NCBI RefSeq assembly: GCF_003945765.1
Contig: NZ_CP027712.1
Coordinates: 3,596,001 to 3,660,000 of the forward strand
DNA length: 64,000 nt
DNA from: Pseudomonas chlororaphis subsp. chlororaphis
Lineage (GTDB): Bacteria > Pseudomonadota > Gammaproteobacteria > Pseudomonadales > Pseudomonadaceae
Direction: 5' to 3'
The notes under the pieces were generated by a model that was not told the origin of the DNA, ran no database searches, and saw nothing but the letters and a program-made list of their open reading frames with translations. Of this stretch, positions 11,350 to 28,228 are shown piece by piece (the stretch's first letter is position 1; each line of letters starts with the position of its first letter). Made by a program: the position numbers and the translations under genes.

Positions 11350-12738
11350 ATGCGCTTGTTGAAAGCCTCCGACCGGCAGGCATGGAATGCGCACGATCCG
11401 TATTTCGCCGAAACCCAGGTGCGCATGGCGCTGCAACGCAATCGGTCAAGCCTTGCGGGGTTGGACGAGCTGTTGCGCGAGCACTACACGATCAACAGCG
11501 ATCGGGAGATTCTGGCCGCCGTCAGAAACGGCGACTGGGTGCTGGTCACCGACAGCTCCAGCGCAGGAATCGGCAACCTGCTCTGCCCCGCGCCTGAACC
11601 GCAGCCGGTCTACCTTCGGCCAGACCCCTGGCCCGATCCCGTTCCTCGCACCGACCTGGTCTTCGCCAAGTCCATCAGCAGCGCGCCCTGGGGCACCACC
11701 CAGGCCGGCAGCGCCAGCGAGCCCGCAGGCAATTTCGGCAAGACCATGCTGATGGCCTCCTCGGCGACCGAGGTCGGGCTCGGCAGGGTCGCCGGCGAGC
11801 TGCTCCTCAGGAGCTTCGCCTGGTCAGTGCAGATGGCCGGCACCGCGGCCAGGACAGTCAGCGGCCCGGCTGGACAGGTGCTGCTCCTGGCCATGACCCC
11901 GACCCGGCTTGGCGACGACGCCTTCTACAGCGAAGAACAACTGCGCGAGCTGCGTGCCGCCACCACCCGGGTGCGCTTCCAGTTCCGCCGCGACAGCCAG
12001 GGCGCGCTGCAAATCCATGGCATCCACACCAGCGCCCAGTCGGGCCAGGACAGCGTCCCGGTGATCAAGGCCCACTGGAACGCCGACAAAAACGCCATGC
12101 AGGCCCACCTCGGCACGCTCACCATCACCTGGACACCGCACAACGGCCCAGTGGTCACCGCCCCGACGCCCTACCCGGGGGTGACCGACGAACTGGCCAA
12201 CCTCATGGTCCACCCCATCGCCGAAGGCGGCGACAGCCAACTCCAGGGCGCGCCCCTCGACGAGCTTAAGGTCGAAGACTGCATCATCACCTTCCCGATC
12301 GGCAGCGGCCTGCGCTCGTTGTACCTGGTCTTCGCCAAACCCATGGTCAACCCACTGGAAGTCGGCCCGGCGAATGATCTTTCCAGTAGAAGCGCCAAGG
12401 ATGGGTTGGATATTGATCACATACCGTCGCAGAAGGCGTTGGAGTTTTTTTTGAATGAAAACGTTCCGGGCATACCCGAAGCAAAAATAAGGAAACACCT
12501 ACTGAAAGCCCCCAGCATTGCAATTCCCCGGAAGGTGCACCAAAAGTACAGTGAGACGTATGGCGGTAGAAACAACAAGGCCCAGCAGGCTAAGGATGCC
12601 GCTGACCTGCGCACAGCCGTAGACAGCAACCTCGAAGCCATCAAACCCTTCCTGCTTGAAGAAGGCTTCACCGAAGAGCAAGTCGAAAAGGCACGAAGCG
12701 ACCTGCATAACCTCCATCAGGAACAAGGCTGGTATTGA
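11350..12738 (+). CDS. Compact S-type pyocin-domain bacteriocin, putative HNH-type nuclease
   Basis: The 462-residue protein contains a pyocin_S-type translocation domain (about residues 142-320, ending near [20 protein letters not shown]) and a C-terminal toxin module (about 345-462). The toxin has [10 protein letters not shown] (Asp356, His357) and [14 protein letters not shown] (His397), a layout like metal-dependent HNH/endonuclease VII toxins. Classical S pyocins are much longer; here the N-terminal ~140 residues are short and do not look like a receptor-binding domain. The VFAKS...EPAGNFG stretch near 105-130 resembles linkers found in type VI-associated pyocin_S effectors. The base composition becomes AT-richer from about 12370. 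The next gene starts one base after the stop. Target and delivery are inferred. Confidence 0.75.
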
Positions 12739-12739
12739 T

Positions 12740-13222
12740 ATGAACGCTGCAATGATCGATGACTTGGTCAAAAACCTCGGGCGCACTTACCCCGAAATGA
12801 TTGCCTCAGGAATGTATCTACCAGGAGGGCCACCAAAGGGCATCTTTGATGACAGCGACAGGGTGACAGTGTCGCCGGAGCCAGGGATCGAATTGGGTTT
12901 TTGGGCCAGCACTCAACGTTTTGAAAACCTGTTCATTACCTTTCTTGAGGGTTTTGAAGGAGAACCCATATACCGAGGGAGCCTTCCCTACCAGCTCAAA
13001 ACGAAGATGAATCAGGCGTGGGTTAAATCTCAATATGGCGAGCCGCTGGAGTCAGGAGCGCCTTATAGAGTTCCTATCTCCGGCATGACAGGCGGCTGGG
13101 ATAGCTATCGTTTTCCAGGCATGTCCAAGAGCGTCCATGTGTTGTTCAAGTACACCGTTGAAATGGAAGTGGAAGGCATCGTCTTCAGGCTGAACGAAAG
13201 ATCCCAAGCACAGCATCTATAG
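12740..13222 (+). CDS. Probable pyocin immunity protein (DUF6392-like)
   Basis: The 160-residue protein starts one base after the toxin stop codon and shares its AT-rich composition, as expected for the cognate immunity gene. The sequence (for example [17 protein letters not shown] and [14 protein letters not shown]) resembles the DUF6392 group, which I recall next to pyocin-type toxins. It has no signal peptide or membrane segment, so it should act in the cytosol by binding the toxin domain. The immunity role is inferred mainly from position. Confidence 0.7.
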
Positions 13223-13276: not shown

Positions 13277-13717
13277 TCAATGCCCCCGAATATAGTGCTC
13301 CAACTGCCGAATCAGGTCCGCCTGTTCGACAATCGCTTCCTTCACCAGATCACCAATCGACAGCAAGCCAATCAGTTGCTCGCCTTCCAGCACCGGCAGG
13401 TGGCGCAGGTGGCTGTCGGTCATCACGGCCATGCAGCGTTCGATGCTGTGCTGGCTGTCGGCGGTGACCACGGGGGCGCTCATGATGGCGCGGACCGGGG
13501 TGCCTACCGATGAGCGGCCTTGCAGCACCACCTTGCGTGCATAGTCGCGTTCGCTGATGACGCCGACCACCTGCCCGGCTTCCATCACCGGCAATGCGCC
13601 GACGTTTTTCTGCGCCATCATCTGCAGTGCTTCGAGCACCATCTGGTCCGGGCCGATACTGTGCACCTGGCGGTGTTCCACGGCCTTCAACTTCAGCAAC
13701 TGAGCAGCGGTTTTCAT
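13277..13717 (-). CDS. CBS-domain protein
   Basis: The 146-residue protein consists of two CBS repeats (about residues 13-70 and 78-135), visible as ALPVMEAGQVVGVISERDYARK and HLPVLEGEQLIGLLSIGDLVKE. CBS pairs bind adenine nucleotides and sense energy state. It follows nirBD on the same strand after about 100 bases, but nothing ties it functionally to nitrite reduction. Confidence 0.85.
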   Translation of the reverse strand: MKTAAQLLKLKAVEHRQVHSIGPDQMVLEALQMMAQKNVGALPVMEAGQVVGVISERDYARKVVLQGRSSVGTPVRAIMSAPVVTADSQHSIERCMAVMTDSHLRHLPVLEGEQLIGLLSIGDLVKEAIVEQADLIRQLEHYIRGH

Positions 13718-13821: not shown

Positions 13822-14211
13822 TTAGCGCACGCCGATTTCCACCACGTCGCCACGCAGCCGCGCCGGCCAGGTGCGCAGGCGTTGCTCCGGGTATTCCAGG
13901 CAGGTGCCGTCGGCCAGGCGGAAGTGCTGCTTGTACAGGGGCGAGGCGATCACCAGCTCATCCTTGATGCAGCCCACCAGGCCACGCCCGATCACGTTGG
14001 CGCCGGACTGCGGGTCGTGGTTGTCGATGGCGTAGAGGGTCTGCTGCGCGGCATCCGGCAGGTAGATCAGCGCCACCTGGGCGCCGTCGTGCCAGACCAC
14101 CACACCGCTGTGGCTGACCAGATCCTGGCGGCTGCACACCGCCTGCCACTGCACGCCGGGCTGCTCGGCGAATCCACTTTCGATAGGTTGCAGGCTTGGC
14201 GACAGGCTCAT
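13822..14211 (-). CDS. nirD: Nitrite reductase (NADH) small subunit
   Basis: The 129-residue NirD is a Rieske-fold subunit that, as usual for NirD, lacks the cluster-binding Cys/His pairs. The segment YAIDNHDPQSGANVIGRG is diagnostic. Its ATG overlaps the nirB stop (ATGA), so the two are translationally coupled. Together they reduce nitrite to ammonium with NADH in the cytosol for nitrogen assimilation. Confidence 0.93.
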   Translation of the reverse strand: MSLSPSLQPIESGFAEQPGVQWQAVCSRQDLVSHSGVVVWHDGAQVALIYLPDAAQQTLYAIDNHDPQSGANVIGRGLVGCIKDELVIASPLYKQHFRLADGTCLEYPEQRLRTWPARLRGDVVEIGVR

Positions 14212-16772
14212 CAGAGCACCTCCTCGGTGACAGGGATCAGGTTGAGTTCGGCGGCCATGATCGGCCGACGCTGGCCGCGTTCCTCGACAAAATGAATGTC
14301 CGGGTCGGGGCGCTGGTCGTTGACGAAGGTGCGGAAGCGCTTGAGTTTTTCCGGGTCCTTGAGGGCGTTGGCCCATTCGCATTCGTAGCGGTCCACCACC
14401 AGTTGCATCTGCGCTTCCAGCTCGGCGCCCAGCCCCAGGCTGTCGTCGATCACCACCGCCTTGAGGTAATCCAGGCCGCCCTCCAGGCTTTCGCGCCACA
14501 CCGAGGTGCGTTGCAGGCGGTCGGCGGTGCGGATGTAGAACATCAGGAAGCGGTCGATGTAGCGGATCAGCGTCTGGTCGTCGAGGTCGGTGGCGAACAG
14601 TTCGGCGTGGCGCGGACGCATGCCGCCGTTGCCGCAGACATACAGGTTCCAGCCGTTCTCGGTGGCGATCACGCCGACGTCCTTGCTCTGCGCCTCGGCG
14701 CATTCGCGGGTGCAGCCGGATACCGCGAACTTCAGCTTGTGCGGCGAGCGCAGGCCCTTGTAGCGGTCCTCGATCTCCAGGGCCATGCGCACGCTGTCCT
14801 GCACGCCGTAGCGGCACCAGGTACTGCCCACGCAGGACTTCACGGTGCGGGTCGACTTGCCATAGGCATGCCCGGTCTCGAAACCGGCGGCGATCAGCTC
14901 GGCCCAGATATCCGGCAACTGGTGCAGTTGGGCGCCGAACAGGTCGATGCGCTGACCGCCGGTGATCTTGGTGTAGAGCTCGTATTTCTTCGCCACCTGG
15001 CCGATCACGATCAGCTTGTCGGCAGTGATCTCGCCACCGGCGATGCGCGGCACCACCGAGTAGGTGCCGTTCTTCTGCATGTTGGCCATGAAGGTGTCGT
15101 TGGTGTCCTGCAGCGGCACCAGGGAGCGGTCCATGATCGGCTGGTTCCAGCACGAGGCGAGGATCGAGCCCACCGCCGGCTTGCAGATATCGCAGCCAAC
15201 GTGGCCGCGGCCATGCTTGGCGAGCATCTCGTCGAAACTGAGGATGCCCTCGACCCGCACCAGCGCGTACAGCTCCTGGCGGGTATAGGCGAAGTGTTCG
15301 CACAGGCTCTTGTCGACGCTGACGCCACGGGCGATCAGCTCATGCTCGAACACCTGCTTGAGCAGGCCGGCGCAGCCGCCGCAACCGGTGCAGGCCTTGG
15401 TCCGGGCCTTGAGCTGGCCGAGCTCGGAACAGCCACCGTCGATGGCCGAGCAGATCGCGCCCTTGGTCACGTTGTGGCAGGAACAGACCGTGGCCGACTC
15501 GGGCAAGGCGCCCGGGCCAAGGGTCGGCGCGCCGGCGCTGGACGGCAGGATCAGGCCGGCCGGTTCGGCGGGCAAGGCGATGCCGTTCTGCATGTATTGC
15601 AGCAAGGTGTCGTAGTAACTGTTGTCGCCCACCAGCACCGCGCCGAGCACCTGCTTGCCGCTGGCATCCACCACCAGGCGCCGGTAGCTGGCGGTGGCCT
15701 CGTCGATGAACTGGTAGCTGCGTGCGCCCGGGGTCAGGCCCTGGGCATCGCCGATGGAACCGACATCCACCCCCAGCAACTTGAGCTTGGTCGACATGTC
15801 CGCGCCCATGAAAGGCTCGCCCGGCTCGCCGCACAGCTGGGCGGCGACGCTGCGGGCCATCTGGTAACCCGGGGCCACCAGGCCGAAGATACTGCCGTTC
15901 CAGCTGGCGCACTCGCCGATCGCGTAGATGTGCGGGTCGCCACTCAGGCACCGGTTGTCCACCACCACGCCGCCACGCGGGCCGATCTCCAGGGCGCAGT
16001 CGCGGGCCAGGGCATCCTGGGCGCGAATCCCGGCGGAGAACACGATCAGGTCGGTTTCGAGGAAGTCGTCGCCGGCGAAGTTCATCCGGTAGCGGTACTG
16101 CTCGCCGGCGCTGATCGACTGGGTGCCCTTGCCCAGGTGCACGCCGACGCCCAGGGCTTCGATCCGCGCCTTCAACGCGCGACCGCCCTGCTCGTCCAGC
16201 TGCACCGGCATCAGCCGCGGCGCGAATTCCACCACATGGGCTTCCAGGCCCAGGCTCTTCAAGGCGTTGGCCGCCTCCAGGCCGAGCAGCCCGCCGCCCA
16301 CCACCACGCCGCGCCGGGCATTGGCGGCCGCGGCGCGGATGGCGTCGAGGTCTTGCAGGGTGCGATAGACCAGGCGCGAGTCGTCTGCGGCGCCCTCGAT
16401 CAGCGGCACGAAGGGATAGGACCCGGTGGCCAGCACCAGCTTGTCGTAATGCACCGGGCCGGCGGCGGTGATGACCTGGCGGTGCTCGCGGTCAATGCGC
16501 AGCACCGCCACCCCCAGGTGCAGGGTCAGGCCCGGGGTCTGGTACAGCGCGGCATCGCCCAGGGCCAGGGATTCGGCGTCGCGACCGGTGAAATACTCGG
16601 ACAGGTGCACCCGGTCGTAGGCGCGCATCGGTTCTTCGCTGAAGACGTGCAGGCGGTACTGCTCGAGGGCACCGCGCGCCACCAGCTGTTCGACGCAATG
16701 ATGTCCGACCATGCCGTTGCCGATCACGATCAGGGTTTTGTGTGTGTTCAAAGGGGCAACAATGGCATTCAT
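14211..16772 (-). CDS. nirB: Nitrite reductase (NADH) large subunit
   Basis: This 853-residue enzyme carries an N-terminal FAD/NAD(P)H reductase (IVIGNGMVGHHCVEQL), a BFD-like [2Fe-2S] domain (CSCHNV...CTGCGGC) and a C-terminal sirohaem/[4Fe-4S] nitrite-reductase domain (CVGSTWCRYG and SGCTRECAEAQ). It reduces nitrite to ammonium by six electrons. I start it at ATG 16772 (MNAIVAPL), the usual Pseudomonas N-terminus, although the ribosome site is weak. The leader upstream carries a sigma-54-like promoter and an ANTAR-type attenuator, so expression probably responds to nitrogen limitation and nitrate/nitrite. Confidence 0.94.
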   Translation of the reverse strand: MNAIVAPLNTHKTLIVIGNGMVGHHCVEQLVARGALEQYRLHVFSEEPMRAYDRVHLSEYFTGRDAESLALGDAALYQTPGLTLHLGVAVLRIDREHRQVITAAGPVHYDKLVLATGSYPFVPLIEGAADDSRLVYRTLQDLDAIRAAAANARRGVVVGGGLLGLEAANALKSLGLEAHVVEFAPRLMPVQLDEQGGRALKARIEALGVGVHLGKGTQSISAGEQYRYRMNFAGDDFLETDLIVFSAGIRAQDALARDCALEIGPRGGVVVDNRCLSGDPHIYAIGECASWNGSIFGLVAPGYQMARSVAAQLCGEPGEPFMGADMSTKLKLLGVDVGSIGDAQGLTPGARSYQFIDEATASYRRLVVDASGKQVLGAVLVGDNSYYDTLLQYMQNGIALPAEPAGLILPSSAGAPTLGPGALPESATVCSCHNVTKGAICSAIDGGCSELGQLKARTKACTGCGGCAGLLKQVFEHELIARGVSVDKSLCEHFAYTRQELYALVRVEGILSFDEMLAKHGRGHVGCDICKPAVGSILASCWNQPIMDRSLVPLQDTNDTFMANMQKNGTYSVVPRIAGGEITADKLIVIGQVAKKYELYTKITGGQRIDLFGAQLHQLPDIWAELIAAGFETGHAYGKSTRTVKSCVGSTWCRYGVQDSVRMALEIEDRYKGLRSPHKLKFAVSGCTRECAEAQSKDVGVIATENGWNLYVCGNGGMRPRHAELFATDLDDQTLIRYIDRFLMFYIRTADRLQRTSVWRESLEGGLDYLKAVVIDDSLGLGAELEAQMQLVVDRYECEWANALKDPEKLKRFRTFVNDQRPDPDIHFVEERGQRRPIMAAELNLIPVTEEVL

Positions 16773-16813: not shown

Positions 16814-16851
16814 AAAAAAAAAAGCGCCTGAAACCTCACGGTTCCAGGCGC
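16814..16851 (-). terminator. Leader terminator of the nirBD attenuator
   Basis: On the minus strand a 12-bp stem GCGCCTGGAACC / GGTTTCAGGCGC (one G-T pair) closes a GTGA loop and is followed by ten T residues. It lies 42 bases upstream of the nirB start, inside the leader rather than after a gene. Its 5' arm is shared with the second ANTAR hairpin. Confidence 0.88.
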
Positions 16852-16895
16852 CTTTGCCTGTTATTTGCGGTGTGCGATCGGGCTGCTGTGCCTGA
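16845..16895 (-). promoter_or_regulatory. ANTAR-type (NasT-responsive) antiterminator hairpins
   Basis: Reading the minus strand, hairpin P1 (16895-16878) has loop ACAGCA on a TCAGGC/GCCCGA stem with one A-C mismatch. Hairpin P2 (16860-16845) has loop AAAGGC on a perfect CAGGC/GCCTG stem. Both loops are hexamers with A at position 1 and G at position 4, the signature bound by ANTAR proteins such as NasT. The 3' arm of P2 is the 5' arm of the terminator, so P2 and the terminator exclude each other. The linker between hairpins is 17 bases. Confidence 0.75.
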
Positions 16896-16991
16896 CTCAC
16901 CGAGTGCCCATGGCCGGTTGGCCGATCGATCTGCGTTGACCGAGGGGGCGGCCCGCCCGCGACATGCGCGGTGGGGCGTTAGCGGCTGTCT

Positions 16992-17007
16992 TGCAGCCTT
17001 TGTGCCA
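16992..17007 (-). promoter_or_regulatory. Sigma-54-type promoter for nirBD
   Basis: The minus strand reads TGGCACAAAGGCTGCA, matching the -24/-12 consensus (TGGCAC-N5-TTGCA) at correct spacing with one change in the -12 TTGC. Transcription from here would run through the attenuator to nirB with a leader of about 210 bases. A GGTGCA half-site at 17107-17112 could belong to an NtrC site but no full dyad is clear. Confidence 0.65.
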
Positions 17008-17167
17008 GGCGGCGCCGCACGCCTTGAAAGGCCGTGCTGGCGGGGTTGCGCGGTCATTCTGCAAGGATCACGGATAGCCTACCCTGTGCCAGGAATCGCC
17101 TTAGCCTGGTGCAAGGCCGGAGCCGCGAGCCTTATAAAAGTGCAAACTTGGCCGATTCGCCGACGCG

Positions 17168-17782
17168 TCAGCGGGTGGAAGCCAGGCGCTGCAAGAACGC
17201 CGCGCGCCGCTCGCGGTCCTGCTCTTCCTTGGCCAGCAGCTGCGGCAACAGCGCCTCGGCCCGTTGCCCATCGAGGATGAACACGCCGTCGTCGTCGCCG
17301 ATGGCGATATCCCCCGGCTTGACTCGCACCCCGGCCACTTCGATGGGCAGGTTGACCTCCCCTTGCTCGCCGATGCCGCGGGTGGTGTAGGCGCTGACGC
17401 CACGGCTGAACAGCGGCAGGCGATGCTCGCGCAAGGCGGCGACATCGGTGACCGCGCCCTCCACCACCACCCCGGCCAGGCCCTTGATCAACCCGGCCAG
17501 GGTGCGCAGTTCGCCCCAGCAGGCGCACTCCTGATCGCCCACGCACTGGATCACCAGCACGTCCCCCGGTTCGCTGAGCAGCAGCGCGTCGCGCAGGATG
17601 GCGCCATCCGGAGCGAAGACCTTGACCGTGACCACATTGCCGAGCATCCGCAGGCCGTCGAACAGCGGGCGGATACCGCGCAGGTAACCCTCATCGCCAA
17701 AGTGGCCAATGGTCGAGGCCGCGATGCCGTGGTAATGCTCAAGCAAGGCGGCGCTGGCGTGGTGTTGGCGCGGAGCGATCAT
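17168..17782 (-). CDS. RraA-like / class II pyruvate aldolase-fold protein
   Basis: The 204-residue protein has the RraA/HMG-aldolase fold: GDVLVIQCVGDQECACWGEL, GVVVEGAVTDVAAL, and the C-terminal PGDIAIGDDDGVFIL. In active 4-hydroxy-4-methyl-2-oxoglutarate/oxaloacetate-type enzymes the second motif reads D-G-x-x-R-D; here it is E-G-A-V-T-D, so the catalytic Arg is Thr112 while Asp113 remains. I start at ATG 17782, where GAGG is 8 bases upstream; an ATG at 17788 is too close to it. It overlaps the FhuF-like gene by 4 bases and is the last gene of the achromobactin operon. A role with 2-oxo acids of the pathway is conceivable but unproven. Confidence 0.72.
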   Translation of the reverse strand: MIAPRQHHASAALLEHYHGIAASTIGHFGDEGYLRGIRPLFDGLRMLGNVVTVKVFAPDGAILRDALLLSEPGDVLVIQCVGDQECACWGELRTLAGLIKGLAGVVVEGAVTDVAALREHRLPLFSRGVSAYTTRGIGEQGEVNLPIEVAGVRVKPGDIAIGDDDGVFILDGQRAEALLPQLLAKEEQDRERRAAFLQRLASTR

Positions 17783-18558
17783 CGGCATTTCCTCGGGCGC
17801 AACAGCGGACAGGTGGAGCAGTATTCGGCGGGTTCGGTGGCCTCGTAATAAAAGCAGCAGGTGCGGCGAAAGCGGATGCTCTTGCCCTCCTCCAGTTGCG
17901 TCGGCGGCCGGCGGAAGTGCCGCAGCGGGTTGTAGTCCAGGCCGAACAGCGCTGGCGCGGCCTCTTGCAGCAGCCAGTCGAAGTCCGCCTCATGACGCAG
18001 GCGGATCAGCGGGTCCTCGACCTTGCCCATGCGTTTTTCGTACAGCGAATAGACCCTCACCGCGGTGTTTTCCCAGAGGATACGCCGGGAGATGCCGCTG
18101 ACCCGGTTGAAGGTCTGCCACAGCGGCGCCAGCAGCCCGGCGAACAGCGCCTCGACAATCGCCGCGCGCCAGGCGTCGCGCTCACCCGCGGCATACGCCT
18201 GGGGCGGCCGGTCTGCCAGCGGCATCGACGACGTCCAGAGCCCGTCGTCGTGGCCGTACTCGATCACGCAGTCGTCCAGGGACAGCAGCAGGCCCTGGTC
18301 GCACACCGACATGGCGTACAGGCAGGCGCCGGTGGCGAGGAAGGAAAAACGCTTGGCCAGCAGCGAGGCGGTGATCGCCCGGGTCGGCGAACCGATCACC
18401 GGCCCCAGCTGGTCGAGCAGCGTGATACAGGTGTCATCGTCGAGCAAAGCGCGGGCGCTGAGGGAGCGCTGGCGGTCGCGTTGGGCCATGGGTTTCAGGC
18501 GCAGCGGCCCAGATAGCACGCTCCAGTCTTGCGGGTTGAAGGCGGCTTGCAGGTTCAT
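17779..18558 (-). CDS. FhuF-like siderophore-iron reductase
   Basis: The 259-residue protein ends with a cysteine pattern Cys234-Cys235-x11-Cys247-x2-Cys250 ([20 protein letters not shown]), the [2Fe-2S] signature of the FhuF C-terminal domain. Such proteins reduce Fe(III) from hydroxamate or carboxylate siderophores in the cytosol. Its start overlaps the cbrD stop (ATGA). I do not recall this gene as part of the basic Dickeya acs/cbr set; its place here suggests intracellular iron release from achromobactin. Confidence 0.85.
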
Positions 18559-19346
18559 CGCGGCAGTTCCCGGCCAAAGGGAATGCACAGCGGCGTGCCG
18601 AAAAACGGATCGGCGATGATCCGGCAGTTGAGGTCGAACACCTGCTTGACCAGTTCCTCGGTCAGGATCTCCTCGGGCCGGCCCTGGGCGAACGCGGTGC
18701 GCTGGTGCACCGCCACCATATGGTCGGCGTAGCGGCAGGCCAGGTTGAGATCGTGCAGGACCATGACGATGGTCTTGTTCTCCTGGCGATTGAGCTCGCG
18801 CAACAGGTCCAGCACTTCGATCTGGTGCGCCAGGTCGAGAAAGGTGGTGGGCTCGTCGAGCAGCACGATCTCGGTGTCCTGGGCCAGGGTCATGGCGATC
18901 CACACGCGCTGGCGCTGGCCGCCGGACAAGGCATCCACCGGCCGCTCCGCCAGCGCCCGCACGCCGGTCTGCAACAGGGCGCGCTCGACCATGGCTTCGT
19001 CCTGGGCCGACCATTGCTGCATCCAGTTCTGGTAGGGATAACGCCCCAGCGCCACCAACTGGCGCACGGTGATGCCTTCGGGGGCGCTGGGCATCTGCGG
19101 CAGGATCGCCAGTTCGCGCGCCACCGCCGCGGTGGATTTGCGCTGGATATCCTCGCCATTGAGGATCACCGAACCCTGCTGCGGCTTGAGCAGCCGCGCC
19201 AGGGATTTGAGCAGGGTGCTCTTGCCGCAGCCGTTGCTGCCGATCAGCACCGACACCTGGCCCGCCGGCAGTTGCAGGTCCAGCCCGTCGATAATCACCT
19301 GGCGCTGATAGCCCAGGGTCAGTTGCTGGGTTGCCATCGAGGACAT
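18555..19346 (-). CDS. cbrD: Achromobactin ABC transporter ATP-binding protein
   Basis: This 263-residue FecE/FepC-type ATPase has Walker [10 protein letters not shown] (36-44), signature LSGGQRQR, Walker [11 protein letters not shown] and the H-loop VLHDLN. It powers uptake of ferric achromobactin through CbrB and CbrC at the inner membrane. It begins 10 bases after cbrC ends. Confidence 0.92.
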
Positions 19347-19356
19347 CGGGAATTCC

Positions 19357-20388
19357 TTAGTGCCGCTGGTTGATCAAAAGATAAAGAAAGAACGGCGTGC
19401 CCAGCACCGCGACAAAGATCCCCGCCGGCAGATCCAGCGGCAGGAACAGGGTGCGCCCGATCAGGTCGGCTAGCATCACCAGGTTGGCGCCGACCAGCGC
19501 CGCCATCACCGCCTGCCCGGCAAAGCCCAGGGCCACCAGGCGCTTGGCGATATGCGGCGCGATCAGCCCGACAAAGGCAATCGCCCCGCCCCAGGCCACC
19601 GCCGCCCCGGCCAGGGCCACGCTGACCAGCAACAGGCCGGCGCGCAGCCACTGTACCCGCACGCCGATGCCCTGGGCCAAGGCATCGTCCAATTGTTGCA
19701 CCCGCACCTGGCGCGCCAGCCACACCAGCAACGGCAGGATCGCCAGCAACCAGCCGGCCAGGGCCCGCGGCTCCGGCCAGCTGGCGCCATAGACGCTGCC
19801 GGTGAGCCAGACATAGGCCGACAAGGTGGTGGTCAGCGGGCTGAACACCAGGACAAAGGTGGTCACCGCCGCCAGCAGCGCCGACACGCCGACGCCGATC
19901 AGCACCAGGCGCAGCGGCGAGGTGCCCTGCCTCCAGGCCAGCAGGTAAATGGCCAGGGCCGCCAGCCCGGCACCGAGCATCGCCGCCAACGGCAAGAACT
20001 GCGGGCCCAGCAGCAGGGAGAAGAACGACAGGTACAGCACCGCCGCGGCACTGGCGCCGCTGGTGATGCCCAGCAGATCGGGGGACGCCAGCGGGTTGCG
20101 GATGATGCTCTGCAAAATCAGGCCGGACACCGCCAGCGCCGCGCCGACCAGGGCCGCCAGCAGCAGGCGCGGCAGGCGCAGTTGCTCGACGATGAACAGC
20201 AGGCGCTCGTCGCCGCCGTGCCACAGCAGCCCCAGCACGGTCAGCGGCGACAGGTTGAGCTTGCCCAGGGACAAGGCGCCGAGCATCACCAGTGCCGTCG
20301 CCAGCACGGCCAGCAACAGCCGCCACAGGGTCGCCAGGTCGATGCGCCGCGAAAAGCCGGCGGTGCGCAGGGTCAGGGTGTTATTCAT
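19357..20388 (-). CDS. cbrC: Achromobactin ABC transporter permease
   Basis: The 343-residue protein is a FecCD/BtuC-family permease with about nine hydrophobic segments. Family-typical motifs include [19 protein letters not shown] and [11 protein letters not shown]. It pairs with CbrB to form the channel. Its ATG overlaps the end of cbrB by 8 bases. Confidence 0.92.
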
Positions 20389-21370
20389 AACGGCCTCCGC
20401 GACGGGCCAGGAAAATAAAGAACGGCGCGCCGAACAAGGCGGTCATCACCCCCACCGGCACCTCCTGTGGCAGGATCACCAGGCGCCCCAGGGTGTCGGC
20501 TAGCAACAGCAGGATCGCCCCCAGCACCGCGCACCCCGGCAGCAACCAGCGATGGTCGATGGACAGGCTCTTGCGCACCATGTGCGGCACCAGCAGGCCG
20601 ATGAAACCGATGCTGCCCGCCAGCGCCACCGCGCTACCCGCCAGGCCGATGATCAGCACGCTCATCAGCCAGCGGATCAACCCGGTGCGCTGCCCCAGGC
20701 CGATGGCGATGGCTTCGCCGGCGTTGAGCACATTGACCTGCCCGGCCAGCAGCAACGCACCGAGCAAGGCCAGCAAAACGCCCATCAGCAGCGGCGCGGC
20801 CAGCCCCAGGTCACGCTCGGACAACGACCCGGCGAGCCAGAACAGCACGGTGTCCAGGCCCTCCTCGTTGACCACCAGCAACGCCTGGCTGAAGGCGGAA
20901 AACAACGCGGTGATCGCCGCCCCCGCCAGGACGATGCGCAGCGGGTTGAGGCTGCCCTGCCCGCGATTGCCGATCAGCCACACCAGGCTGCCGGCCAGCG
21001 CGGCGCCGATAAAGGCGCACCACAGCCACTGGCTCATTGACGACAGGGCAAACAGCGACGAGCACAGGATGATCGCGAAGGTCGCCCCGGCATTCACCCC
21101 GAACAACCCCGGCGATGCCAGCGGGTTGCGGGTCAGCGCCTGCATCAGCGCCCCCGCCACCGCCAGGCTCGCACCCACGGCGACGGCCATCAGGGTGCGC
21201 GCCAAGCGAGTGTTGAAGATCAACTGCTGGCCGGCGCTGAGGCTGTCCGGTTGCAGCAGGCCCTTGAGCAACTGCGACGGCTCGATCCAGGTCGCCCCGG
21301 CCGCCAGGCTCAGGCCAGCGCACAGCAGCAGGACGACCAGCGCCAGGCCGAGTTTCAGCCCGCGACTCAT
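20381..21370 (-). CDS. cbrB: Achromobactin ABC transporter permease
   Basis: This 329-residue FecCD-family permease has the family motifs [19 protein letters not shown] and [12 protein letters not shown] and many hydrophobic segments. I start it at ATG 21370 ([10 protein letters not shown]), which overlaps the cbrA stop as ATGA; the longer upstream frame is just cbrA read in another frame. It is the partner of CbrC. Confidence 0.92.
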
Positions 21371-22257
21371 GAAGACGCCACCAGGCGGGCAATGTCGTCG
21401 AGCATCAGGTTGGCGCCGAGGATCCCTCCGGAGAAACTCCAGGCGATGCCATCGACCCGCCACACCTGCTGCTGTTGCACGGCGCGCAGCTGTTGCCAGA
21501 ACGGGTAATGCACCAGCCGTTCATAGTTGTGCCGCACCGCCTGGCTGTCGCGCTGGAATACAAAAAACAGGTCGGCATCGACCACGGGCAAGTTCTCTTT
21601 GCTGGTGAGTTTGATATAGGTGCCCCGGGACTCGCGGGCGACCGGGTTCCAGGCGAAGCCCAGCTCCGTGAGCACCGAGCCGGCGAAACTGCTCGGCAGG
21701 TAACTGCGGATGTGGTCTTCACGCACATCCAGCACCGACACCGTGGGCGGCCAGCGCCCGGCGAAAGTCACCTGCAACTGCTCGCGCAAGCGCGCCACCC
21801 GCTGCTGCCATTGCCCCAGCAGGCTGCTGGCCTGCTGCTGGCGGTTCAGGGCCGCGCCCATCAACGCCAGGGTGCGCTTGAACTCGAAGACTTCCTCGAG
21901 CATCAGCACCGTGCCCATGCGTTCGAGCAGCGGCGCGATGCGCTGGTGGCGAAAACGCGAGGCGACGATCACGTCCGGCTCCAGCAGCACGATGTCCTCA
22001 AGGCTGGGCTGGGTTTCCAGGCCAACATGAGGAACCTTCGCCAGCGCCGGGCGCAAATAACGGAAGGTCGGCTTTTCGCTCGAAGACTCCACTACGCCGC
22101 AGGGCGTCACGCCCAGCGCCACGGCGCTGTCGGTGGCGCCCTGGAACAGGGTGACCAGGCGCAGCGGTTCGGCGCGGGCGATCCGTGGCAAGGCCAGCAA
22201 CCCCAGGGACAGGCGCAACAGCGTGCGCCTGCCGGGATGGATCAGCGGTTCAGGCAT
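21367..22257 (-). CDS. cbrA: Achromobactin periplasmic binding protein
   Basis: This 296-residue FecB/FhuD-type binding protein has an N-terminal export signal (residues about 1-29, [18 protein letters not shown], with a twin-arginine flavour). The periplasmic-binding fold shows [17 protein letters not shown]. It hands ferric achromobactin to CbrBC. The start overlaps the end of acsA by 8 bases (ATGCCTGA). Confidence 0.9.
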
Positions 22258-24133
22258 CGGGAGCCAGCCGCTGGAACGGGTTGACCACTTCGCCCTTGCC
22301 GAACGGCATGCTGCCCGGGCCGCCGGCGCGTTCGATCATCGGCGTCAGCAGCAGCTTCTGCGGCCAGCGCGGCGCTTCGAACAGCTGGTGCCTGATCATC
22401 GCCCGCGCCTCGTCGTCGAAGTCGATGCTCTGCAACAGAGCGTCCAGCACCTGGCGCAAGGTGCTCCACAGCGTGGTGGCCGGCACGGCGTAGACCTGGG
22501 CCAGGGTGTCGATGATCGCCCGCACGTTGACCTGGATCGCCAGGGTCTGCAGCCAGAACAGCAGGTCTTCGGGACGCTGGTGGTACAGGGTGTTGGCGTG
22601 GCCCTTCTTGATCCGGTATTCCGGGTCGGCCATGCCGTTGCGTTCCAGCCACGGCACGAAGATGCGCAGCGAATCGTGGTCGCGCAGCAGCAGGCCCTGG
22701 GCCTGGCCGGCCTTCCACACCAGCACCGCGTTCTGCCCGTGCACCTCGCCGAGCATGCCCAGGCGGAACATCCGCAGGTTGACGTCGAAGAAGCGCTGGC
22801 ACAGCTCGCCGAACAGGGTCAGCACCGAAGCCTGGGTCACCGGCAGTCCGCGGTACTGCATCCACTCATCGAAGAAGTGCCGGTTGCTGCCGGGCAATGG
22901 CGTGCCCAGGGCGGCCATCGGCAGCAGGCGGCAGTCCGGGTCGTCGAGCAAGGCTTGCGGGTAACCGCGGACCATCGCCGACAGGTGCCGCGGCGCCTCG
23001 TCGAACAGGGTCGCCTGGGGCGGCATGAAGGCCCACCACTTGCTCTCGTCGCACAGGTGCAGGCTCTGTTCCAGCACCGGGTCGAGGCGTCGCACCTGAT
23101 GCAGCAGCGCTTCGCTGAGGCCGCCGTTGATCATCTTCACCGCCGGCAGGTAGCGCGAGGCGCCCAGGGAATAGATGGCCATCGGCAGCTTGAGGTAGTC
23201 GGCGCTGGCGAAACAGGGGGTCATCGAGCGCAGCGACGAGGTGGCGAATACCGTGGCCTCGCTGAAGTCCAGGCGCTGGCAGTCGCCACGGGCAAAGGCA
23301 TCGCCCAGTTGCGCCGGCAATACATGCTCGAACTGCCACGGGTGCACCGGCAAGGCCACGTGGCTGTCACCGATGCCGCGTTCGCGCAGTTCACCGGCCA
23401 GGCGTGCCTGCAAGGCTTCGGGCAACAGGTAGCGCGCCGGGTAGACCTGTTCCAGGTCTGTCACGCCCTCGCCGCCTTGCAGCAGGTCCTTGCGCACCGC
23501 CACCCAGTTCAGCGCCACCGGCTGGGCGAACTCGGCCTGGTACTGCTGGTATTCGGCCTGCAGCAAACCCTGCTTGGCCTTGGCCAGCGGGTGGTACGGA
23601 CGATCGCGCAGCGAAGCCCACTGCTCCATGGTGCGGAAAAAGGTCGCGCCGTCCTGGGCCATCAGGCCCTGGTGGTCGACCCGGTGCTCCAGGGACAGGG
23701 CGGTCTGCCAGACGCTGATATGCAGCACTTCGAGGAACAGCGTCAGGCCCTTCTCGTTGTCCTGGAAACGCGGGCCCATGCCGGTGAACACCCGGCGCAT
23801 GAAGTCCACCGGGCCCAGCGCCGTCCAGCGCTGCTCCTGACGGGCCAGAACCTGCGTGCCCGGAACCTTTTCCCACTGCTGGGTGATGCCCGGGCGCAGG
23901 GCGATGCTGATAAAGCGCTGTTCCTGGGCGTCGCAGCACCATTCCCAGATCCGCTGCTGCCCATCCGCGCCTTCAAGGGTTGGGGCTTCAAGGGCTGGGG
24001 CTTCTGGATGGGCCTGGCGCCATTGGCTGGCGGTCAGCAGCGGCAAGGGTTCGCGGCCAAAGAAGTCTTCGGCCAGCAGGCAATCGATCAGGTCCTGCAT
24101 CACCAGTTCGGCGGCCATGGAGGTGAAATTCAT
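22250..24133 (-). CDS. acsA: Achromobactin NIS synthetase AcsA
   Basis: At 627 residues this is a full IucA/IucC-family NRPS-independent siderophore synthetase. The ATP-binding elements are YHPLAKAKQG (His181) and LPVHPWQ (His264), and EVHGQN lies further on; the C-terminal part has the FhuF-like fold of the family. It adenylates a carboxylate of a citrate-derived intermediate (or 2-oxoglutarate) and joins it to an amine during achromobactin assembly. It starts 4 bases after acsB ends. Confidence 0.92.
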   Translation of the reverse strand: MNFTSMAAELVMQDLIDCLLAEDFFGREPLPLLTASQWRQAHPEAPALEAPTLEGADGQQRIWEWCCDAQEQRFISIALRPGITQQWEKVPGTQVLARQEQRWTALGPVDFMRRVFTGMGPRFQDNEKGLTLFLEVLHISVWQTALSLEHRVDHQGLMAQDGATFFRTMEQWASLRDRPYHPLAKAKQGLLQAEYQQYQAEFAQPVALNWVAVRKDLLQGGEGVTDLEQVYPARYLLPEALQARLAGELRERGIGDSHVALPVHPWQFEHVLPAQLGDAFARGDCQRLDFSEATVFATSSLRSMTPCFASADYLKLPMAIYSLGASRYLPAVKMINGGLSEALLHQVRRLDPVLEQSLHLCDESKWWAFMPPQATLFDEAPRHLSAMVRGYPQALLDDPDCRLLPMAALGTPLPGSNRHFFDEWMQYRGLPVTQASVLTLFGELCQRFFDVNLRMFRLGMLGEVHGQNAVLVWKAGQAQGLLLRDHDSLRIFVPWLERNGMADPEYRIKKGHANTLYHQRPEDLLFWLQTLAIQVNVRAIIDTLAQVYAVPATTLWSTLRQVLDALLQSIDFDDEARAMIRHQLFEAPRWPQKLLLTPMIERAGGPGSMPFGKGEVVNPFQRLAPDA

Positions 24134-24137
24134 CGGA

Positions 24138-24911
24138 TTATTTTCCTTCTAGAGAAAGGGTGGCCAACCTGGCCTGGAGAGCACGAAAGGCAATGCCGCG
24201 TTCGTCGCCGAGGACAAAGGCCCGGACCCCGCGCTCGCGCCAGCGGCCCAGGTCGCCCTGCTGCCGGGGAATGGCGCAATACGGCACGCCGGCATGGTCC
24301 GCCGCCTGCCAGGCATCGAGCAGCGCCTGCTGGACCGCCGGCTGGTCGATCTGCCAGGGCATGCCGAGGGATTGCGAGAGGTCGGCCGCGCCTTCGAGGA
24401 TCATGTCCAGGCCCGGCACCGCGGCGATCTGCGCGGCGTTGCGCACGCCGGCGACGCTTTCGATCATCGCCACCAGCATGATCTGCTCGTTGGCCTGCCC
24501 CACGTACTGCGCCAGGCTGTGCTTGCCGAAACTGCCGGGGCGCCCGGCGTTGAGGCTGCGCTGGCCCAGCGGGTGGTATTTGCAGGCGGCAATCGCCGCC
24601 TGCAACTGCTCGGCGGATTCGATCATCGGCAGCACGATGCCCTGGGCGCCGCCGTCGAGCAGGCGCAGCATTGTCTTGGGGTTGAGGTCGGCGACCCGCA
24701 CCAGCGGCGTCAGCTCGTAGGCCTCGGCGGTGCGGATCATGTGCTCGACGGTTTCCGGATTGATCAGCACGTGTTCCATGTCGATGATCACGAAGTCGAA
24801 CCCGGCCTCGGCGATCAGCTCGATGGCCGCCGGCGCCGGGATCGAGCTGATCAGCCCGTACACCGCCTGCCCGGCCGCCAGTTTGCGTTTCAGCTGGTTG
24901 CTTCTCAGCAT
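24138..24911 (-). CDS. acsB: HpcH/HpaI-aldolase-fold protein AcsB (possible citrate synthase)
   Basis: The 257-residue protein belongs to the HpcH/HpaI aldolase superfamily: FDFVIIDMEH (Glu46, His47), PLVRVADLNP, and GIVLPMIESAEQ are visible. In staphyloferrin B clusters the homologous SbnG makes citrate from oxaloacetate and acetyl-CoA, so AcsB may provide citrate for the first NIS step. That function is inference from the family. Its start overlaps the acsC stop by 7 bases. Confidence 0.88.
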   Translation of the reverse strand: MLRSNQLKRKLAAGQAVYGLISSIPAPAAIELIAEAGFDFVIIDMEHVLINPETVEHMIRTAEAYELTPLVRVADLNPKTMLRLLDGGAQGIVLPMIESAEQLQAAIAACKYHPLGQRSLNAGRPGSFGKHSLAQYVGQANEQIMLVAMIESVAGVRNAAQIAAVPGLDMILEGAADLSQSLGMPWQIDQPAVQQALLDAWQAADHAGVPYCAIPRQQGDLGRWRERGVRAFVLGDERGIAFRALQARLATLSLEGK

Positions 24912-26794
24912 GCTTGCGGCCTGTAGGCATGAAGTGGGTTGGGCACCGACTTGAAGCGCCGCTCGCCGTCGCCCAGCAGGCGGCGCTTGGTCAGTTCTTC
25001 GACTTCGTAGCTCGGCGCGAACACGTCGAACAGGCCGAAACGGTCGCGGTGCTGCGGATGGGCGTCCTGGTAGTCGAGGATTACCTCGGCGGTCATTTGC
25101 CAGAACTGGCCTTCGTCGAGCTGGTAGTGCTGGCGCAGAAAGATCGCCATCTCCGCCAGGCAGATGAAGAAGAAGCAGTCGCAGGAGAAATCCCGTACCG
25201 CGTTGACATCGTCGGTGAGGATGAAGGAGTTGCGATTCAGCTTGGCGTGGCTGGCCGGCAGCGGCACCAGCTCCGGGCACAGCTCGGGGCGCGCCAGGTG
25301 CGCCGGCGAGTAGCGCACGCCGTCGTGGAAGTCCTTGAGGGCGATGCGCTGCGGCCAGCCCTGCTTGACGATCAGCACGATGTTCTGGCCGTGGGATTCC
25401 ATGCCGATGCCTTCGGCGTAGAGCATGTGGATGATCGGCGGCACCGTCACCTGCAGCAGCTGGCGGGTCCAGGCCTGCAGGCCGTACTGGCGGATCCAGG
25501 CGTCGATGAACGGCTGCTGCGGCCCTGTGCCGTAGCGGTTCTCCACATGGCTCAGGCCGTTGAACGGCACCGCCTGCTCGTCCGCCTTCAGGTACTGATG
25601 GAGGCTTTCGCGCCAGATCGCCCCCAGGGTGCCGTAGGCCTGGGGACTGCGGGACGGAGGCAGGTGCTGGTAGTCGAAGCTGACCCCGGCCACTTCGCCG
25701 AGGATCACGAAATCCAGCTGGCGCGCGGTGCTGTCGCTGGCGATCAGCTGTTGCAGCCAGTCGGTGATGATCGGCCCGTTCAGCACCGTGTGCCGGGCCA
25801 GGATGCGCGTGCTGGAAGTGTTGGTCATGCTCATGGCCAGCTTGACGTAGGGCCGCTGCTTGGCCGTGGCGTTGGCCAGGGTGCGGATCGACTGCTGGGC
25901 CTTGTACTGATCATCCGAGGTGCCGAGGTAGATCAGCTCGCCGCTGAGCAACTCCGGGTAGAAGGTCGAGACAATCAGGTTTTCCCACTGCCACGGGTGC
26001 ACCGGCAGCAGCTGGTAGTCGTCCAGCGCCCTACCCTGGCTGGCCAGTTGTCGCTCGACCTGCTGCCAGCGCTCGGCGCCCAGCTCCTGGCGGATAAAGG
26101 CCGGGAAGTCGAGTTTCTGCGAATGGTTGAGCGAGGCCCGGTTGCGCGCAACCGCCAGCCACACCACGGCGATCGGCGTGGCGAATTCCGGGCCGTAGGC
26201 CTGGTTGTCCGCCAGGGAAAAGCCGATGCGCGACTTGTAGCACGGGTGGTAGCTGTGGGCGTCCATGAAGTGCTGCTCCAGGGCGTCCACGTCCAGCTGG
26301 CAGGACGGTTTCTCGGCCTGGTAGCCCTGGCTGCGCGCTTGCAGATCCTTGAGCTGGGTCTGCTCCAGTTCCTGGATGAAACGCCCCAGGTGCGGGCTGT
26401 CCTGATAGTCACCAAGCAGCTCGGCCAGGGCCTGGTGCAGGTCCGGCACGCTGCGCCGGCCGCGGCTGTCGAGGCGTTCGAGGCTGGCGGAATCGAGGCG
26501 GATCAAATCGAAGCTGGCGCTGAGCAGGCCGTTGCAGTGGTACTCCACCCGCTGCTGCTGGCCGTCGATGCCGAGCACCACAAAACGGCGCTGGCCGCTG
26601 TCATGGCCGTGCGGGCCGCCCTCCAGCGGCTGGCTGTCGAACGGCAGCACGCCTTCATACAGCAGGGTCTGCAACAGCTGGCCAACCACCCGCTGCTGGA
26701 CTTTTTCGTCGATACGCCCATCCACCGTGGCCAGCCAGGCACCGGGACCGGAGGGCTGGCTTGAGGTTGTCGAGATTGCAGTCGCCATGTTCAT
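24905..26794 (-). CDS. acsC: Achromobactin NIS synthetase AcsC
   Basis: This 629-residue IucA/IucC-family synthetase has YHPCYKSRIG (His183), LPVHPWQWEN (His266) and GMESHGQNIVL, the ATP-binding signatures. It performs one of the later condensations in achromobactin synthesis, joining diaminobutyrate-type amines to the citryl core. It begins 18 bases after yhcA ends, the largest gap in this run of genes. Confidence 0.92.
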   Translation of the reverse strand: MNMATAISTTSSQPSGPGAWLATVDGRIDEKVQQRVVGQLLQTLLYEGVLPFDSQPLEGGPHGHDSGQRRFVVLGIDGQQQRVEYHCNGLLSASFDLIRLDSASLERLDSRGRRSVPDLHQALAELLGDYQDSPHLGRFIQELEQTQLKDLQARSQGYQAEKPSCQLDVDALEQHFMDAHSYHPCYKSRIGFSLADNQAYGPEFATPIAVVWLAVARNRASLNHSQKLDFPAFIRQELGAERWQQVERQLASQGRALDDYQLLPVHPWQWENLIVSTFYPELLSGELIYLGTSDDQYKAQQSIRTLANATAKQRPYVKLAMSMTNTSSTRILARHTVLNGPIITDWLQQLIASDSTARQLDFVILGEVAGVSFDYQHLPPSRSPQAYGTLGAIWRESLHQYLKADEQAVPFNGLSHVENRYGTGPQQPFIDAWIRQYGLQAWTRQLLQVTVPPIIHMLYAEGIGMESHGQNIVLIVKQGWPQRIALKDFHDGVRYSPAHLARPELCPELVPLPASHAKLNRNSFILTDDVNAVRDFSCDCFFFICLAEMAIFLRQHYQLDEGQFWQMTAEVILDYQDAHPQHRDRFGLFDVFAPSYEVEELTKRRLLGDGERRFKSVPNPLHAYRPQAC

Positions 26795-26812
26795 ACCTTG
26801 TGCGAAGAAGGG

Positions 26813-28228
26813 TTAACGGTGTTCGAGGGCGCCGGGCACAGCCTCGGCGGTCTCGTCGGAAAGGGGAAAACGCCAGGCGCAGGGCAGTGCCAGCAGGATC
26901 AGCAGGCCGGTGGCCACGAACACCTCGCTGATGGCGGATGACATGCCCGCCTGGGCCTGCACGCCGCCATCGATCAGGCGGAACTCCAGCCACAGCGAGG
27001 CGATGACAATGCCCAGGGACGACACCAGGCGCCGCGATATGTTGTTCATCGCCGCGCCCTGGGTGACCATCGGCTCGGGCAAGGCATTCAGCCCGGCGGT
27101 GGTCACCGGCATGTAGGACAGGCCCAGGCCCGCGCCGCGCAGCATCATCAGCGCGAACACCAGGCCGATCGCCGCATTGGCCGGGAGCAGGCCCAGGGCC
27201 AGGGTCGACAGCCCGGTCAGCAGCAGGCCGATGGACACCACCCGGCGCGGCCCGTGGCGATCCAGGGCGCTGCCGCCCATGCGCCCGAACAGACTGGCGA
27301 ACACCGCCGTGCACAGCAGCGCCAGGCCGGTCCAGATGGCGCTGTAGCCGAGCACCGTCTGCACCAGCAACGGCAGCAGCACCAGGCACTCGAACATGCC
27401 CACCGACTGCACCACGGCGATGATCACGCTCAGGCGGTAACCGCGCAGGGCGAAGATCCGCAGGTTGAGCAGCGGCGCCTCGCGGCGCAGCTCCAGACGG
27501 ACAAAGGCCACCAGGCACAGCAGCGCTACCAGCAGCATTCCCAGGTTCATAGGGTTGGCCAGCGCGGCAGCGTGGTGCAGGCGGCTAATGGCAATCATCA
27601 GCAGGCCGATGCCCGAAGCGATCAGCAGGTAGCCGGCCAGGTCGAACGGCTTGCGCTCGGCCGGCTCGGAAGCCGGCAAGACCGCGAGGCCCATCAGCAG
27701 CGCGACGACGCCGATCGGCACGTTCATCAAAAACAGCGAGCGCCAGCTGAACCACTCCAGCAGCAGGCTGCCGCACAGCGGGCCCACCGCCGGCGCCAGC
27801 ATCACCGCCGCGCCCCACAGGCCGGTGACCCGGCCGCGCTCGTCCTTGGCGTACACCGCGAAGATGATCGCCAGGGACAGCGGGATCATCAGCCCGCTGG
27901 CGATGCCCTGCACCACCCGCGCGGCGATCACCAGGGCGATGGAATCGGCCAGGGCACCGAGCAGCGAACCGCCGATAAACAGCGCCACGCCCCACAGGTA
28001 CAGGCGTCGCCGACCCAGGCGCTGGCTGAGGAAGCTGGTCAGCGGCATGGTCATGCCCATGCTGGTCATGAAGGCCGCGACTATCCAGGTGGCCATCAGC
28101 GGGCCGATGGCGAAGGCCTGCATGAACGCCGGCAGCGCCGGGTTCAGCGAGCTGTTGTTGAGGCTGACGGTCATAGTGCCGAGCAGCACGTTGACCACCA
28201 CCCAAGCGCGCGGTGCCTTGAAACTCAC
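26813..28228 (-). CDS. yhcA: MFS transporter YhcA, probable achromobactin exporter
   Basis: The 471-residue protein has about 14 hydrophobic segments and the DHA2/EmrB-type pattern, including the motif GRRRLYLWG after TM2 and VVQGIASGLMIPLSLAI. It sits in the achromobactin operon at the same place as yhcA of Dickeya. Export of the finished siderophore is the likely role. Its start overlaps the acsE stop (ATGA). Confidence 0.9.
   Translation of the reverse strand: MSFKAPRAWVVVNVLLGTMTVSLNNSSLNPALPAFMQAFAIGPLMATWIVAAFMTSMGMTMPLTSFLSQRLGRRRLYLWGVALFIGGSLLGALADSIALVIAARVVQGIASGLMIPLSLAIIFAVYAKDERGRVTGLWGAAVMLAPAVGPLCGSLLLEWFSWRSLFLMNVPIGVVALLMGLAVLPASEPAERKPFDLAGYLLIASGIGLLMIAISRLHHAAALANPMNLGMLLVALLCLVAFVRLELRREAPLLNLRIFALRGYRLSVIIAVVQSVGMFECLVLLPLLVQTVLGYSAIWTGLALLCTAVFASLFGRMGGSALDRHGPRRVVSIGLLLTGLSTLALGLLPANAAIGLVFALMMLRGAGLGLSYMPVTTAGLNALPEPMVTQGAAMNNISRRLVSSLGIVIASLWLEFRLIDGGVQAQAGMSSAISEVFVATGLLILLALPCAWRFPLSDETAEAVPGALEHR

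Follow-up and report, generated by a model that had tools for sequence, protein, structure and literature searches.

Known systems

Attenuation of nirBD under the control of NasT, downstream of a sigma-54/NtrC promoter, has already been published for Pseudomonas (PMC12830290), and the RNA targets of ANTAR proteins are described as preferring hexaloops of the A1/G4 kind that are closed by a C-G pair (PMC7496416). The linkers of natural EutV targets are 5-12 nt long, and a linker of 14 nt or one lengthened by 20 nt is harmful (PMC3369931, PMC8934654). In the EutV crystal structure a single dimer is not in contact with the two hexaloops of the same RNA; one hairpin has been proposed to act in recruitment, and lengthening the linker abolishes the effect (PMC8934654). 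NasT that has been freed from NasS is reported to form an oligomer that is broadly consistent with a hexamer (PMC3795266). How an ANTAR dimer makes use of two hexaloops is unsettled, and a family of leaders in which nature has already done the mutagenesis offers a way of approaching the recruitment model. The nirBD leaders are such a family: upstream they carry two hairpins that can stand in for one another and differ in their distance from P2, some relatives lack the one and some the other, and the type of regulator has changed in several lineages.

The nirBD leader

The window (the whole stretch of 64,000 nucleotides analysed here) contains the following features of the nirBD leader and its genes, all on the minus strand:

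17007-16992 (-), sigma-54-type (-24/-12) promoter, TGGCACAAAGGCTGCA, read in the sequence by pattern only
near 16981 (-), start of transcription, predicted by spacing from the -24/-12 promoter
16906..16949 (-), domain D0, outer helix GCCC (16949-16946) / GGGC (16909-16906), from the consensus fold and the MFE fold
16943-16926 (-), hairpin P0, TCGGTC-AACGCA-GATCGA, A1/G4 hexaloop with C-G closing pair, from comparison and covariation
16923-16912 (-), small hairpin GGCC-AACC-GGCC, inside D0 together with P0
16868..16902 (-), domain D1, outer helix CGGTG (16902-16898) / CACCG (16872-16868) around P1
16892-16881 (-), hairpin P1, GGC-ACAGCA-GCC (loop 16889-16884), below which come an A-C mismatch and more pairs
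16861..16867 (-), 7-nt linker CAAATAA, from D1 to P2
16860-16845 (-), antiterminator hairpin P2, CAGGC-AAAGGC-GCCTG, from fold and comparison
16851-16824 (-), intrinsic terminator of 12 bp with GTGA loop, T10 at 16823-16814, one arm shared with P2
14211..16772 (-), nirB, assimilatory nitrite reductase large subunit, NCBIfam TIGR02374 above cut-off, ATG at 16772
13822..14217 (-), nirD, small subunit, NCBIfam TIGR02378 above cut-off (this is the stretch tested; the nirD start lies inside it)

A preliminary description of this stretch had proposed a sigma-54-type promoter, two hairpins with A1/G4 hexaloops (ACAGCA in P1 and AAAGGC in P2) and, with one arm in common with P2, a terminator of 12 bp and ten T, all in front of nirBD. 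Each of these elements is found when the minus strand is read, and both nir genes score above the cut-offs of their protein models. What that description left out is P0, together with the two outer helices. Stems of at least 3 bp carrying A1/G4 hexaloops, by which ANTAR targets are recognized, occur here three times (P0, P1, P2) and not twice, each with a C-G pair closing the loop; the last of them, P2, is exclusive with an intrinsic terminator; and the genome encodes an ANTAR protein, NasT. Rfam is of no help: at the gathering threshold no family matched the 64-kb window, and the comparison with its ANTAR model, which had been suggested as a check, gave no match at either the gathering or a low threshold. 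(The low-threshold matches, to a plasmid ctRNA, a snoRNA and others, include none to ANTAR and look like chance.)

P2 and the terminator are alternative folds. The two are mutually exclusive because the 3' arm of P2 is contained in the 5' arm of the terminator; the common arm is 16845-16849, and the leader was folded both including and omitting the 3' arm of the terminator. For the terminator region the fold has -29.1 kcal/mol, a value that none of 200 shuffles reaches (z -5.6). RNA cut before the 3' arm of the terminator folds into the three hairpins P0, P1 and P2, with an energy that is not below that of shuffled sequences (z -0.95). In the source genome the P2 pattern occurs exactly only once, at nirB; if as many as two mismatches are allowed it has 134 sites, vs 61 for the pattern read backwards.

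The surroundings of the operon deserve a brief description. Upstream, the genes at 17779-27000 of the window have the look of a siderophore cluster, which we take to be of the achromobactin type: a FhuF-like protein falls below its model cut-off, and an ABC transporter and IucA/IucC-like genes are recognizable by eye. On the other side, a 462-aa frame at 11350-12738 resembles, by eye, an S-type pyocin that ends in a nuclease, followed by a possible small partner gene at 12656-13222 (the whole stretch being 11350-13222).

Leaders of related genomes

Comparison was based on 222 loci upstream of nirB, which came from genomes of the genus and of the family as well as from named contigs (a fetched subset of the 242 genus and 82 family genomes that have a nirB match). 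P2 and the terminator are present in 215 of the 222; setting aside the 7 loci lacking P2 and then 25 duplicates among the 215 left 190 distinct leaders. The rule for finding P2 required A1 and G4, and a stricter P2 pattern missed P2 in 11 loci. A promoter-like site of the sigma-54 type is present in 185 of the 190 leaders, vs 1 in the reversed-sequence control. Of 185 upstream stretches, 61 contain putative NtrC half-sites, as compared with 1 for the control; the window's own, TGCACCA, is at 17113. (The nirB genes without a P2 attenuator are those of L212, L215, L220, L229, L230, L232 and L233; in the first five a sigma-54-like site is seen by eye shortly before the start codon.)

P1 is a real hairpin, because its stem covaries: the covariation that had been looked for in related leaders is there (score 0.313 vs 0.225), and the outer pairs yield 0.296 vs 0.204, although both are weaker than the corresponding values for P0. 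(A technical note on these scores: the finding rules required three inner pairs of P1 and four of P0, with A1 and G4 preferred, so that the inner pairs are paired by construction; the pair counts were accordingly redone on the outer pairs. The P1 alignment took in 80 of 113 distinct sequences, that of P0 all 91.) Two features of P1 had been noted as slightly unusual. The A-C mismatch is real, and the same pair is unpaired in 41 of 80 compared P1 hairpins. The 17-base linker is correct in length if P1 is taken alone, as a hairpin of 5-6 pairs (17-18 nt), but is 7 nt when measured from the outer helix of D1; its length is accounted for by the P1 domain, from whose end to P2 there are only 7 nt. 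Linker and mismatch both fit P1 as the tip of a longer, interrupted helix; a longer-RNA fold pairs the outer-helix bases of D1 differently.

The third hairpin is the better conserved of the upstream pair. A P0-type A1/G4 hexaloop hairpin upstream of P1 turned up in most of 30 genus leaders that were scanned, and in its stem both sides have changed in 79 cells, vs 27 in shuffled alignments (score 0.315 vs 0.170, 0 of 500 shuffles). The three outer pairs, which lie outside the finding rule, have 57 such cells vs 28 and a score of 0.439 vs 0.196 (again 0 of 500). Support for the upstream RNA is comparative, since this part alone folds no better than shuffles (z -0.17 for the P0 domain, 0.28 for the P1 region). 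A consensus fold of the 128 of 190 leaders that have an A1/G4 P0 70-92 nt before P2 and a P1 hairpin consists of two domains, one with the GCCC/GGGC helix and P0, the other with an outer helix and P1, followed by P2. In the window only 3 nt separate D0 from D1; P0 lies about 80 nt before the P2 loop, which speaks against its use as a recruiting hairpin, given that EutV tolerates short linkers only; compaction by the two domains might bridge this distance. On these comparative grounds we consider it fairly likely that P0 is a functional NasT hairpin.

How are the two upstream hairpins distributed? Among the 190 leaders, 95 have A1/G4 versions of both, 71 of P0 only, 14 of P1 only and 10 of neither: P0 is retained in 166 and P1 in 109. 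In the 71 leaders with only P0, P1 is absent (35), has G1 (34) or differs otherwise (2); in the 14 with only P1, P0 has G1 (8) or is absent (6). By NirB sequence the closest named records are those of Pseudomonas sp. NFIX28 (98%) and P. chlororaphis PCL1601 (95%), and the latter (L058) has lost P1 and kept P0. A group that we take to be P. putida-like (the name is our own reading) has only P0 and P2, with P0 nearer to P2. On a nirB tree the ten leaves with neither hairpin fall into about five groups; with these ten removed, the tree calls for 6 losses and 1 gain of P0 and 11 losses and 3 gains of P1, and no leaf lacks both. When the six losses of P0 are placed at random, 3.4-3.6% of trials (0.034-0.036) are free of leaves that lack both hairpins, which is a modest statistic on a tree built on about 420 nt of nirB; the history of loss is also uncertain, because one of the P0 "losses" concerns a clade of 24, of which 22 regained it. 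In many relatives, to go by their leaders, one intact upstream hairpin seems to suffice.

NasT and its replacements

The single PF03861 match in the source genome (6.81 Mb, one contig) is a 191-aa NasT with its ANTAR domain above cut-off and a receiver-domain match just below cut-off; before it lies a NasS-type protein that is NMT1-like. Forty hand-chosen, related genomes were searched with this NasT: the 10 with neither upstream hairpin, the 7 without P2 and 23 others. All 23 of the last kind, which have P0 and/or P1 (4 both, 13 only P0, 6 only P1), encode full-length NasT at 66-100% identity. Among the matches listed, NasT appears in none of the 10 genomes with neither hairpin, and the 7 genomes without P2 have no NasT and no ANTAR C-terminus either. 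For nine of the ten, the search matched best to the C-terminal part of an open frame of 430-505 aa, and all nine frames encode proteins that combine NIT with ANTAR, as NasR does; the tenth genome has a completeness of 70%. Of 33 tested genomes with P2, 32 have either NasT or a protein of the NIT-ANTAR type. The ten leaders concerned (L137, L156, L171, L173, L177, L178, L194, L200, L203 and L210) keep P2, and neither the script nor the eye found an A1/G4 hairpin of P0 or P1 type in them. In these chosen, related genomes, then, P0 and/or P1 co-occur with NasT, both being missing where it is missing.

Mechanism and alternatives

That NasT controls the nirBD leader by antitermination is very probable on this evidence. 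The best overall reading, and a probable one, makes P2 the switch and has P0 and/or P1 recruit NasT to it. The sigma-54 promoter, most likely activated by NtrC upon nitrogen starvation, would give rise to a leader of about 168 nt ending at the terminator. Nitrate or nitrite would release NasT from NasS, and the freed NasT would hold the hairpin with the P2 hexaloop, block the terminator and let transcription proceed into nirBD. Bringing NasT to P2 would be the task of the upstream A1/G4 hairpins, P0 and/or P1; the idea of recruitment is taken from the hairpin proposed for EutV (PMC8934654). With P0 and P1 each borne on its own longer helix, the leader would be a three-hairpin variant of the two-hairpin ANTAR antiterminator.

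The geometry of NasT antitermination had been recognized in the preliminary description, and comparison supports its sigma-54-type promoter, its ANTAR-type attenuator, its NasT and its placement at nirBD. Its choice of P1 and P2 as the sole NasT pair, with P0 unrelated, fares less well. P1 is the closer of the two to P2, which follows the base of the D1 outer helix after 7 nt; it has A1/G4 in 109 leaders and covaries, and it is the only upstream hairpin in 14 leaders and in 6 of the 23 tested NasT genomes, which is a counterweight in its favor. Against this, P0 is retained in 166 leaders; 71, including that of the close relative L058, have it without an A1/G4 P1, and so do 13 of the 23 NasT genomes; and the other NasT-type leader of this genome, at narK, combines an AACG-type loop with one of the AAAG type. 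We regard a P1-P2 pair to which P0 contributes nothing as doubtful. Suppose, alternatively, that P0 is not RNA structure at all but a DNA inverted repeat for a dimeric regulator, of which symmetric covariation is also to be expected. The 28 G-U or U-G cells in the three outer pairs of P0, the asymmetry of its loop letters A1 and G4, its position downstream of the promoter, and the joint disappearance of P0 and P1 with NasT make this highly improbable.

Two further alternatives were weighed. RNAs of the EutX/Rli55 type sequester EutV, and the terminated nirBD leader might do the same for NasT, with P0 and P1 making up a complete two-hexaloop site even though P2 is locked. Both hairpins are indeed present in 95 of 190 leaders, and the gap of 3 nt between D0 and D1 in the window also speaks for it; yet 85 of the 180 leaders other than those with neither retain only one, so that sequestration is no family-wide function, and as an account of the leader we think it distinctly unlikely. 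A terminator that simply works constitutively, free of ANTAR control, can point to its own strength, but against it stand P2 in company with the terminator at 215 of 222 nirB loci, and NasT or a NIT-ANTAR protein in 32 of 33 tested P2 genomes; we give it almost no credence. Returning to recruitment of NasT by the upstream hairpins, a bolder version, though rather unlikely, can be tentatively entertained: the leader may be a three-site ANTAR RNA on which NasT docks at P0 and P1 before P2 is made and is then passed on to P2, the terminated leader serving as a NasT sink and P0 and P1 being partly redundant. The comparison, at any rate, suggests which hairpin to mutate in a given nirBD leader.

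A second leader behind nasT

The same genome has another leader of this kind, between nasT and a NarK-type gene, with the hairpins GGTAACC-AACGGC-GGTTGCC and CGAC-AAAGAC-GTCG and a terminator. Its loops resemble nirB P0 and P2 more than the window's P1. Of 21 stretches downstream of nasT that were inspected, 8 have an A1/G4 hairpin pair (20 of the stretches are from the 22 other NasT genomes, plus the source genome, which is one of the eight). The genes behind nasT (L234:3312-12142, that is, C1:2097311-2106141) encode a transporter of the NarK type, a PP2C-kinase protein, a 938-aa protein that is the second in this genome to resemble NirB, and a molybdopterin reductase similar to NasA; NirB-type proteins thus number two here.

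A covariance model built on P0, P1 and P2 and run over the source genome gives a convincing match to the nirB leader alone, at E 1.1e-36, the next match (0.002) being its opposite strand; the narK leader was not found. Among 115 genomes of the order, 26 matched at E <= 0.01, 24 of them in other families and mostly weak. Two of eight loci inspected, L279 and L272, have AACGGC beside AAAGGC (the L279 pair and the second hairpin of L272 by script, the AACGGC hairpin of L272 by eye), and the gene behind has, by eye, the look of a nitrate-transport binding protein.

Comparison with known systems

The core of the switch is known and already published for Pseudomonas. Three or tandem hairpins with NasT were not found in the open-licence literature, a scope outside which two primary Pseudomonas papers lie; likewise not found in it are a leader with three hairpins, upstream hairpins that are partly redundant, and the absence of both of these from leaders in genomes that lack NasT.

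The nirBD leader (nalA) of P. aeruginosa and P. putida (Romeo 2012; Nie 2024), as presented in PMC12830290, has the same type of promoter, the same regulator, NasT, a terminator and the same place. The P. aeruginosa operon is cited by the name nirBD-PA1779-cobA; in the window, a gene with CBS-domain matches (13277-13717) comes directly after nirD on the same strand. With the antiterminators of eut/EutV, nasF/NasR and amiE/AmiR, as described in PMC3369931, PMC7496416 and PMC8934654, the window's nirBD leader shares the A1/G4 hexaloops, the C-G closing pair and a hairpin held in common with the terminator. The narK leader between nasT and narK is like the nirBD leader in having an AACG-type and an AAAG-type loop and a terminator, but makes do with two hairpins and a short linker where the nirBD leader has three. 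Set against ANTAR dual-hexaloop RNAs, then, the nirBD leader stands apart by its three hexaloops, its long, structured spacing and upstream hairpins that are partly interchangeable.
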